The notes beneath the pieces were generated by a model. It saw only the letters and a list, made by a program, of their open reading frames with translations, made no database searches and had not been told where the DNA came from. This document shows, piece by piece, positions 19,441-27,107 of a stretch of DNA of 64,000 nucleotides. The stretch comes from Rubrivivax sp. (GTDB lineage Bacteria; Pseudomonadota; Gammaproteobacteria; Burkholderiales; Burkholderiaceae_C), in contig JADMJD010000128.1 of assembly GCA_018780805.1 (NCBI GenBank), positions 1-64,000 of the forward strand. The letters are read 5' to 3'. Every line of letters starts with the position of its first letter. The first letter of the stretch is position 1. The translations under genes and the position numbers were made by a program.

Positions 19441-20559
19441 ATGACGCTGCAACCGCCTGCCCCCACCGTGCACCTCGTGGCCGGTGCACGGCCGAACTTC
19501 ATGAAGGTGGCGCCCATCATCCGGGCGCTTCAGGCCGATGGCCAGCTGGGCTGGCGCCTGGTGCACACCGGTCAGCACTTCGACCACAACATGAGTGGTG
19601 TGTTCTTCCGCGAACTGGGCATCCCGGAGCCGGACACCCGGTTTGACTGCGGCGGCGGCACCCATGCGGCGCAGACCGCACGGGTGATGGAGGCCTTCGA
19701 AGCCCACTGCCGCGACACCCGGCCCGACGCCGTGCTGGTGGTGGGCGATGTCAATTCCACACTGGCCTGTGCGCTGGTGGCGCGCAAGGCCGGCATCCCG
19801 GTGGCGCATGTCGAAGCCGGTTTGCGCAGCGGCGACATGGCGATGCCGGAAGAGATCAACCGCCGCGCCACCGACGCCATCTGCAACTGGTTCTTCGCGA
19901 CCGAGCCGGCCGGTGTGCAGCACCTGCTGCGCGAGGGGCATGCAGCGGCCGATATCTTCCACGTCGGCCACGTCATGGCCGACAACCTCATCCACCAGGT
20001 GCAGCAGCTGCAGCAGACGCCGACCTCGGCGCTGGAGTCGCATGACCTGAAGACCCGCCTGGGCCCGCACTACGGGGTGGTCACGCTGCACCGGCCCGCC
20101 AACGTGGACGACCCGCAGGCGCTGGCCGGCATGGTGGCGGCCCTGAACCGCATCGCGCAAGAGCTGCCGCTGGCCTTTCCGGTGCATCCGCGCACGCGGC
20201 TGATGCTGGAGCGCTCGGGCCTCGTGCTGGCGGCCGGTGTGCACCTGCTGCCACCCCAGGCCTACATGAGCTTCCTGCACCTGTGGAAGGACGCCGCCGT
20301 CGTCATCACCGACAGCGGTGGCCTGCAGGAGGAAACCACCGTGCTGGGCGTGCCCTGCATCACGGCACGCGACAACACCGAGCGCCCCGTGACGGTGGAC
20401 GAAGGCAGCAACACCCTGGCGGGCACCGACCCGGCGCAGATCGTGGCGCTGGTCATGGACACCTTGCGCACCGGTGGCAAACGCGGCCAGCGCCCGGCGC
20501 TGTGGGACGGGCAAGCCGCCGTGCGCATCGTGCAACACCTGAAGGAGCGCATGGCATGA
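19441..20559 (+). CDS. wecB: UDP-N-acetylglucosamine 2-epimerase (non-hydrolysing)
   Basis: Cytoplasmic enzyme of 372 residues interconverting UDP-GlcNAc and UDP-ManNAc. Family motifs are GARPNFMKVAPIIRAL at the N-terminus, HPRTR in the middle and TDSGGLQEE with GVPCITARDNTERPVT near residues 290-315. It is the first gene of the polysaccharide locus. Together with the dehydrogenase at 28538 it can provide an N-acetylhexosaminuronic acid donor for the WecG-type transferase. Its TGA overlaps an ATG that opens the 60-bp tandem repeat. Confidence 0.93.
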   Translation: MTLQPPAPTVHLVAGARPNFMKVAPIIRALQADGQLGWRLVHTGQHFDHNMSGVFFRELGIPEPDTRFDCGGGTHAAQTARVMEAFEAHCRDTRPDAVLVVGDVNSTLACALVARKAGIPVAHVEAGLRSGDMAMPEEINRRATDAICNWFFATEPAGVQHLLREGHAAADIFHVGHVMADNLIHQVQQLQQTPTSALESHDLKTRLGPHYGVVTLHRPANVDDPQALAGMVAALNRIAQELPLAFPVHPRTRLMLERSGLVLAAGVHLLPPQAYMSFLHLWKDAAVVITDSGGLQEETTVLGVPCITARDNTERPVTVDEGSNTLAGTDPAQIVALVMDTLRTGGKRGQRPALWDGQAAVRIVQHLKERMA

Positions 20560-20676
20560 GCACGCCGGGCCGTCCCAAGGGCGAATTCCGGAGTGCGCAG
20601 CACGAAGGTACTCCATTGAGCACGCCGGGCCGTCCCAAGGGCGAATTCCGGAGTGCGCAGCGCGAAGGTACTCCAA
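20557..20676 (+). repeat. 60-bp tandem duplication at the wecB/wecG junction
   Basis: Two head-to-tail 60-bp units (20557-20616 and 20617-20676) differ at only two or three positions. Each starts at a TGAGCACGCCGGGCCGTCCC segment and ends in CGAAGGTACTCC followed by A(A/T)TGA, so each unit carries a GAAGG ribosome-binding site seven bases before a potential start (TTG in unit 1, ATG in unit 2). GGAGT and ACTCC flank the GAAGG and could pair. The unit is 20 codons without a stop in the wecG frame. Confidence 0.85.
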
Positions 20677-21500
20677 TGAATGAACCACGCATCAGCCTGA
20701 TGGGCTGTCTGATCGACAACCTGACGATGGCGGAGACGGTCGACAAGGTGGCGGGCTTCATCGCCTCCGGCCAGCCGCACCAGCATGTGGTGGTCAACGT
20801 CGACAAACTCGTCAAGGCGCAGAAGGACCCGGCGCTGCGCGACATCATCAACCGCTGCGACCTGGTCAACGCCGACGGCATGCCTGTGGTCTGGGCGTCC
20901 CGCTGGCTGGGGCGGCCGTTGAAGGCCCGTGTCACCGGTGTCGACCTCTTCGATGCCTTGATGGTGCAAGCCGCCGCGCGTGGCTGGCGTGTCTTTCTGC
21001 TCGGTGCGCGCGAAGAGGTGGTGATGGCGGTGCGCGACAAGTACGCCGAGCGCTTTCCGACCCTGCAGTTTGCCGGCGCGCGCAACGGCTACTGGTCGGC
21101 CGACCAAGAGCCGCAAGTGGTTGAGGAGGTGCGTGCCGCGCGTGCCGACCTGCTGTTCGTGGCCATCAGCTCGCCGTACAAGGAGCGTTTTCTGGGCACC
21201 TGGCAGGCCCACATGCGGGTGCCCTTTGCGATGGGTGTCGGCGGCACCTTCGATGTGGCGGCGGGCAAGGTCAAACGCGCGCCGGTCTGGATGCAGCAGT
21301 CCGGGCTGGAGTGGTTCTACCGCTTCCTGCAGGAGCCGCGTCGCATGTTCCGCCGCTACTTCATCGAAGACATGGGCTTCATGCGCCTGCTGGCGCGTGA
21401 GTGGTGGCAGGCCCGTCGGCAGACCCGTCGGCAAGTCCGCCAGCAGGGTGGTGATGCAGCCGCCGCCGGGCCAGTGCCGCTGGAGCACAAAGGGCGATGA
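20676..21500 (+). CDS. WecG/TagA/CpsF-family glycosyltransferase
   Basis: GT26 transferase of 274 residues that adds an N-acetylhexosamine(uronic acid) unit from a UDP donor to a polyprenyl-linked acceptor. Recognisable segments are VVVNVDKLVKAQKDPALRD, the conserved NADGMPVVW and VAISSPYKERF, then PFAMGVGGTFDVAAGKVKRAP. ATG 20676 starts the conserved domain and is preceded by GAAGG from the tandem repeat. An in-frame ATG at 20556 would add 40 repeat-encoded residues with the motif STPGRPKGEFRSAQ twice. Enzymes of this family use ManNAc or ManNAcA donors, in line with wecB. It overlaps the next gene by ATGA. Confidence 0.9.
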   Translation: MNEPRISLMGCLIDNLTMAETVDKVAGFIASGQPHQHVVVNVDKLVKAQKDPALRDIINRCDLVNADGMPVVWASRWLGRPLKARVTGVDLFDALMVQAAARGWRVFLLGAREEVVMAVRDKYAERFPTLQFAGARNGYWSADQEPQVVEEVRAARADLLFVAISSPYKERFLGTWQAHMRVPFAMGVGGTFDVAAGKVKRAPVWMQQSGLEWFYRFLQEPRRMFRRYFIEDMGFMRLLAREWWQARRQTRRQVRQQGGDAAAAGPVPLEHKGR

Positions 21501-25997: not shown

Positions 25998-27107
25998 ATG
26001 GGCAACCCCTCAACGACCACCACCACGACAGCCTCGACGGTGGCTGCCGCCGCAACCGCAGCCGCAACCGCAGCCGCACCCGCCGCAAGCCGCAGCCTGT
26101 ACCTGGCGTGGACGCACTTCCAGCGCCGCCAGGTGTCGATGGCCGACCTGGCGGGCTTCGAGTGTGTCTTCCTGCCGCTGGCCTACAAGGGCCGCAGCCA
26201 CCTGCTGCGCGGCCTGCACTACCTGCGGCTGATGCTGCGCACCGTCCAGGTGTTGCGCCAGCACCGGCCAGCGGTGTTGTGGCTGCAGCTGCCGCAGTTT
26301 CCGCTGCTGTGGGCGGCCATGCTCTACAGACTGTTGTTCGACCCGGCGCTGCAGCTGGTGGCCGACTGCCACAACGCCGCTTTCCAGGCGCCGTGGTCCC
26401 GGCTGCCGTTGGGGCTGTCGCTGTTGCGGCGCTGCACCTGCATCCTGGTGCACAACGACGACATGCGGGCCCGGGCGCAGCAGCTGGGTCTGCCCATGAC
26501 CCGTGTGCAGGTGCTGGAGGATGTGCCGCCGCTGCACCGCGGTGGCACGCGCGGTGTGCCGGTGCCCCCGGCGTTTGCGGGCCGCCCGCGGCCCTGGGTG
26601 TTGTTCCCCGGCAGTTACGGCCAGGACGAACCCATCGGCGAGTTGCTGGCGGCGGCCGCGATGATGCCGGCCGGCACCTTGGCCGTCACCGGCCGGCGCA
26701 GCAATGCCACCCGCAACGGCCACGACATCAGCCAGGTGCCCGCCAACACCGTGCTGACCGACTACGTGCCGGTGGCCGAGCTGGACGCCCTGCTGGCCCA
26801 TGCCGACGTGGTGCTGGCCTTGACACGCAACGACGGCATCCAGCTCAGCGTCTGCAACGAGGCGCTGGGCTTCGGCAAGCCCATGGTCATGTCCGGCACC
26901 CCGCTGCTGAGGGCGCTGTTCGGCAGTGCCGCCGTGGTGGTGGACTCGTCGGACCCGGCGGACATCCTGCGTGGCATCGGGCAGGCCTGGCAGGCGCGTG
27001 ACCACTGGGGTGATGCGGCCGAATCACTGGCGCATCAGCGGCGCAGCCGGTGGGTGGCCGAGCCTCTGCAACGATGCTTGCGGGTGCTGGATGCGCGTGT
27101 GCCATGA
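25998..27107 (+). CDS. GT-B-fold glycosyltransferase
   Basis: Cytoplasmic glycosyltransferase of 369 residues. After an unusual Thr/Ala-rich leader of about 30 residues it has a Rossmann-type N-domain (LQLPQFPLLWAAMLYRLL, DCHNAAFQAPWSRL) and a C-domain with FPGSYGQDEPIGELLAA and the donor-site region CNEALGFGKPMVMSGTPLL. The leader is encoded by a CCGCAACCGCAG microsatellite-like stretch (26048-26085). Sugar specificity is not recognisable. The end overlaps the ATP-grasp gene (ATGA). Confidence 0.8.
   Translation: MGNPSTTTTTTASTVAAAATAAATAAAPAASRSLYLAWTHFQRRQVSMADLAGFECVFLPLAYKGRSHLLRGLHYLRLMLRTVQVLRQHRPAVLWLQLPQFPLLWAAMLYRLLFDPALQLVADCHNAAFQAPWSRLPLGLSLLRRCTCILVHNDDMRARAQQLGLPMTRVQVLEDVPPLHRGGTRGVPVPPAFAGRPRPWVLFPGSYGQDEPIGELLAAAAMMPAGTLAVTGRRSNATRNGHDISQVPANTVLTDYVPVAELDALLAHADVVLALTRNDGIQLSVCNEALGFGKPMVMSGTPLLRALFGSAAVVVDSSDPADILRGIGQAWQARDHWGDAAESLAHQRRSRWVAEPLQRCLRVLDARVP
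26037..26090 (+). repeat. Ala-coding microsatellite in the glycosyltransferase gene
   Basis: Imperfect GCAACCGCAGCC repeats (12-bp unit, two good copies plus flanking degenerate ones) encode an Ala/Thr tract. Unit length is a multiple of three, so slippage would change tract length but not the frame. Confidence 0.55.

Follow-up and report, generated by a model that had tools for sequence, protein, structure and literature searches.

Tandem 60-bp units between wecB and wecG of a Rubrivivax strain belong to an apparently undescribed Burkholderiales family of short hairpin repeats associated with start codons

Rickettsia palindromic elements are small dispersed palindromic repeats of approximately 150 bp, which are joined in frame to host genes and translated (PMC10969869). 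The enterobacterial repeats RU-1 (ERIC), RU-2 and RU-3 are likewise small and mobile-looking, contain open frames and are fused to genes (PMC2759123). As far as the accessible portions of these sources extend, both are the nearest kinds to the repeat described here: in each, a small repeat supplies an open frame that becomes fused to genes. REPINs are extragenic and depend on a RAYT (Y1) transposase; PMC3116915 and PMC3733652 provide background. For Rickettsia palindromic elements and RU repeats, the available portions of those papers describe neither a preference for start codons nor a start-coupled mini-ORF nor a hairpin with a fixed loop and a variable stem, all of which we report below. 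We found no publication on the present family when the literature was searched by DNA sequence, by peptide and by concept, which is weak evidence given the thin coverage of subscription journals.

In the window, the 64,000-nucleotide stretch of Rubrivivax sp. DNA that was analysed, two repeat units separate wecB, encoding a UDP-GlcNAc 2-epimerase (19441–20559, plus strand; PF02350, E 1.2e-101), from a wecG/tagA/cpsF-type glycosyltransferase gene, the shortest form of which spans 20676–21500 (plus strand; PF03808, E 1.6e-61); the order is wecB, unit 1, unit 2, wecG. TRF reported a period of 60 with 2.1 copies, 95% matches and a score of 234 at 20556–20679, far above the scores of the other tandem repeats in the window. 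Unit 1 (20557–20616, plus strand), delimited by TRF, repeat search and family members elsewhere, and unit 2 (20617–20676, plus strand), delimited by TRF and repeat search, are the near-identical 60-bp pair that the original prediction had placed between these genes. They agree at 58 of 60 positions, the mismatches being A at 20602 versus G at 20662 and T at 20616 versus A at 20676. Both are assigned to class A of the family and contain the core GCCGGGCCGTCCCAAG, located by core search at 20564–20579 and 20624–20639 (plus strand). The TGA of unit 1 (20557–20559) is the wecB stop codon.

The left wecG start codon, ATG at 20556–20558 (plus strand), overlaps this stop as ATGA and has an AAGGAG-type Shine-Dalgarno (SD) sequence approximately 8 nt upstream. 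It occupies the ancestral position, as indicated by six relatives, two of them from the same genus, in which wecB and wecG meet in a plain ATGA or GTGA overlap lacking any unit; no other genome searched carries the unit at wecG. Sequence inspection gave two further in-frame starts, an internal TTG (20616–20618, plus strand) with GAAGG-N7 and the right ATG (20676–20678, plus strand) with an element-borne GAAGG-N7, and the predicted GAAGG-N7-(T/A)TGA unit end was found in both units. The frame predicted to be shared with wecG is indeed open from the ATG at 20556 through both units into WecG, with the translation MSTPGRPKGEFRSAQHEGTPLSTPGRPKGEFRSAQREGTP-MNEPRISL. Elsewhere in the window, a GCCGCA-type hexamer array (26049–26097) close to the N-terminal end of an ORF resembling glycosyltransferases yields an Ala-rich stretch.

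The 60-bp unit is a member of a large, apparently undescribed Burkholderiales family of short hairpin repeats. When its own genome was searched with the 60-mer by BLAST, copies of up to 98% identity were returned at unrelated loci, and the core GCCGGGCCGYNCCMAG has 64 matches in the 5.18 Mb of that genome, compared with 1 for a reversed-pattern control. Of 60 genomes from the genus, 51 contain a nearly identical core, as do 45 of 300 from the order, the highest count in one genome being 147. The class A pattern, with the layout NTGAGCNCG-core-GGCGAATACCGGAGTGCGCAGCACGAAGGTACNCCA and a length of 60 bp, was found in 62 stretches of public genomes, the hosts including Rubrivivax, Rhizobacter, Ramlibacter, Ideonella, Piscinibacter, Hylemonella, Bordetella genomosp. 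13 and Zoogloea. Class B has the core in common with class A, but is approximately 70–110 bp long and consists of a variable stem followed by a CCCCC/GGGGG part. The family shows what generally characterizes short interspersed palindromic repeats, namely many dispersed hairpin copies of non-coding size. In support of the original prediction, the unit is dispersed in this genome and its relatives, with copies at many unrelated junctions. The unit is not confined to wecG, as copies occur at other loci and in other genomes, nor is the copy number fixed across loci, which carry one to four units; tandem arrays with a 60-bp period and two to four units are found, for example, at L098, L143, L154, L181, L203 and L207.

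Genome G486, which has 45 core copies, contains a four-unit class A array and, in the same set of loci (L205, L207, L208 and L216), a class B subfamily with near-constant arms GAGGAAAC / GTTTCCTC, which suggests recent amplification of one stem version. In IMG/VR contigs, the length of the stem beside the core is bimodal (0–4 or 6–11), which indicates that true members sit among chance core matches. One class B locus, TGTCGCCATGATCG-core-ATCATGGCG, is repeated in several of these contigs (L337, L364, L379, L386); phages may carry elements, and host sequence in the contigs is not excluded. Spread by plasmids was also considered, and was dropped after a protein search with the 44-residue peptide gave no credible match.

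Sixteen junctions of the own genome were compared with relatives, and 14 were readable. The element is missing at the orthologous site in all 14, and in 13 of them it is inserted on the start codon of the downstream gene, which is thereby duplicated; the exception, L076, is a readable insert in the leader upstream of a TerC-like gene. For the close relative G481, 14 copies of the own genome (rodA included) had an orthologue, and the 12 readable junctions were all without the element, while recO and L006 were left out because they gave no clean alignment. At recR, G481 has TTCTGACCCG-ATGTCC where the own genome has GACG-ATGT[GGACCCCC...GGCCC]ATGTCTGAA, and at trpG, TTCTGACC-ATG corresponds to TTCTGATGCGG...GGCATGAC-ATG. 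The DctM gene reads ATGAATGA in G481 and ATGAGTGA[...]ATGAGTGA in the own genome. For rodA, the two sequences are GTGAACGCC and ATGAGCGCT[...]ATGAGCGCT; the mrdA–rodA overlap in G481 is GTGA, without an insert, and the insert is also missing in the other relatives whose locus was viewed in gene orientation. GTGA without the element was found at alaS–GNAT in G481 as well. The agreement of several relatives points to insertion rather than loss at these junctions, although loss in the relatives could in principle explain the missing element.

A stop/start overlap (ATGA) was rejected as the required target, as in G481 neither the MarR-type gene (L004, class A) nor lpxC (L020, class B) is overlapped from upstream; the common feature is therefore the start codon. 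The original prediction had described a mobile intergenic module that preserves translation. Its dispersal, its absence from readable orthologous junctions, the variation of copy number by locus and the passing on of the frame all agree with that description, whereas the typical site is not intergenic space but the start codon itself, even where no upstream gene overlaps. Other copies lie between convergent genes or, rarely, inside genes, apparently in frame. Three class B copies apparently inside genes (L028, L030 and L062, in genes that are hydantoinase B-like, UxaA-like and RecJ-like by eye) have an open frame on both sides.

The two classes differ in how their frames meet the downstream gene. 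Among 55 two-ended class A copies, 45 have exactly 60 bp between the NTGA sites and 48 have an open frame and a length that is a multiple of three; the in-frame property is partly automatic, given the constant unit length, and the counts are not independent, since copies are related by descent. By rough codon-score gene finding, 33 of 48 single class A copies are in frame with the downstream gene, and because this method is rough, the comparison with G481 weighs more. L059 no longer has a right start, and only the left start precedes a Tat-like signal, so that the product, if expressed, must contain element-encoded residues; G481 lacks these residues.

In 23 of 33 class B copies, the frame opened by the left start terminates no more than 12 nt from the right start, and in 4 of 33 it is fused to the gene. 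The +2 frame is coupled in only 6 of 33 (Fisher p 5e-5), and the +1 frame offers no comparison, since a stop is built into ATGA. The resulting mini-ORF encodes approximately 26 residues, with its stop on or beside the retained start. Translational coupling at overlapping stop and start codons is a mechanism rather than a family of sequences, and its hallmark, a stop overlapping or adjoining the next start, is present in the 23 coupled copies, in which the insert recreates ATGA, TGATG or TGANATG. In ordinary coupling junctions the overlap is ancestral, whereas here it appears to be rebuilt by an inserted repeat with its mini-ORF.

Stem covariation is seen in both classes. Class A copies share a conserved pairing, G-N-GC-GCA-GC-N'-C, directly 5' of the SD, in which the variable pair is T-A in 34, G-C in 30, C-G in 5 and T-G in 2 copies (n=72). 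The small hairpin in unit 1 is GTGC-GCA-GCAC (20593–20603, plus strand; family covariation), and that in unit 2 is GTGC-GCA-GCGC with one G-T pair (20653–20663, plus strand; repeat search and family alignment). The GGAGT/ACTCC hairpin originally predicted fared less well. The complementarity is present in the units, but the minimum-energy fold does not include it as a simple hairpin, and it is not conserved in the class A family, in which the five positions are complementary in 93, 68, 38, 76 and 67% of copies. The two-unit array folds only slightly better than its shuffles (z −1.56, with 12 of 200 shuffles reaching the same level). Class B stems are 8–9 bp long with arms that vary by locus (54 distinct arms in 78), and their variable positions are paired in 62–96% of copies, compared with 38–66% with shuffled partners, covarying through all four Watson-Crick combinations. 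Rfam gave no match at the element at the gathering score or at E<=5, apart from an unrelated 11-bit chance hit. At L018, a response regulator/sensor kinase junction, the 3' arm TGCTCAT fits the downstream gene start ATGAGCA better than it fits the 5' arm TGAACAC, and this alternative pairing could conceal the start codon. A manganese riboswitch (RF00080; L012, 13–118, minus strand) lies near another family member.

We consider it likely that the wecB–wecG units are a tandem class A pair of dispersed, apparently mobile Burkholderiales hairpin repeats, inserted at the wecG start and tolerated via translation. One class A copy would have entered the wecG start codon in this lineage. The left side would have kept the old ATGA, with the wecB stop and the original start under its native SD, and the right side would have gained a second start with the element-borne GAAGG. 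A second unit would later have been added in tandem. Ribosomes starting at 20556 would read in frame through the units and give WecG an N-terminal extension of 40 residues, or they might start again at the right start, 20676. Such insertions probably survive because, seated on a duplicated start codon, they leave the following gene accessible to translation; class B relatives would achieve the same outcome by a mini-ORF that ends on or beside the retained start.

Selection for a regulatory cassette, in which the extra SD and start together with the hairpins tune or conditionally couple downstream translation and the repeat number sets WecG output or yields two forms, would account for the element-borne SD and start, the covarying hairpins, the coupled mini-ORFs and the arrays of one to four units. 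We nevertheless regard this explanation as unlikely, as the downstream genes share no function (recR, trpG, lpxC, rodA, DctM, MarR, GNAT and others) and no compared orthologous junction retains the element, which disfavours long-term selection at given genes. Still less probable is that a Y1 (RAYT) transposase mobilizes the family as REP/REPIN-like elements: the repeats are short, GC-rich, hairpin-forming, dispersed and sometimes tandem, but PF01797 was not found in the own genome (G000), G481 or G486, an absence that is not absolute because the own genome is 92% complete. A chance local duplication of 60 bp without wider meaning would explain why the units are adjacent and 97% identical, and can be practically dismissed, as this genome and others carry the unit at many unrelated loci, although the second unit may have come from ordinary local duplication.

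Beyond insertion at wecG, a bolder proposal, which we put forward tentatively and regard as rather doubtful, is that the start codon itself is the insertion target of a new kind of bacterial mobile element, which duplicates the start, has a fixed loop and locus-matched stem arms, some of which match the target, and is translated as an N-terminal extension or a stop-start-coupled leader peptide. Targeting might run via an RNA or initiation-complex intermediate, or via an ATG(A)-specific enzyme. There was no support for a long target-site duplication of fixed length, either in class A (5.05 versus 4.90 at random) or in class B (4.47 versus 3.95, a small excess). Direct repeats next to the duplicated start are only slightly in excess. 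Longer ones of 7–9 bp are confined to a few class B loci, and class A shows no excess over shuffled pairing. No terminal inverted repeats, which together with a fixed-length target-site duplication mark transposase-mobilized MITEs, were reported in the searched region. At L079 and L081, the 3' arm of the stem pairs with the duplicated target. That stem arms are always target-derived would fit these two loci, and was rejected on account of trpG, where the arms are unlike the native flank in the relative.

Set against the described systems, the family may resemble Rickettsia palindromic elements, as class A copies appear to be in frame at most start sites and the in-gene copies look open. It differs from them, described as in-frame insertions within ORFs (PMC10969869), in that most examined copies lie on a start codon, in its length of 60–110 bp, in its apparently different sequence and in the separate start-coupled mini-ORF of class B. 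The RU repeats are longer (103–168 bp), unrelated in sequence and found in other hosts, and the portions available do not connect them with start codons. With REP/REPIN sequences, as partially documented, the family shares short, GC-rich palindromic repeats in many copies per genome, sometimes clustered; unlike these, the present copies are translatable judging by their frames, and no RAYT was detected with them.

If the proposed explanation is true, such repeats would be a route to new N-terminal extensions and leader ORFs, core genes such as recR, trpG, lpxC, tatB and rodA included, and the annotation of start sites across Burkholderiales would be affected. The hairpin with a fixed loop and a variable stem raises the question of how the element moves, and junctions with zero, one and two copies would provide a natural series for studies of re-initiation and translational coupling.
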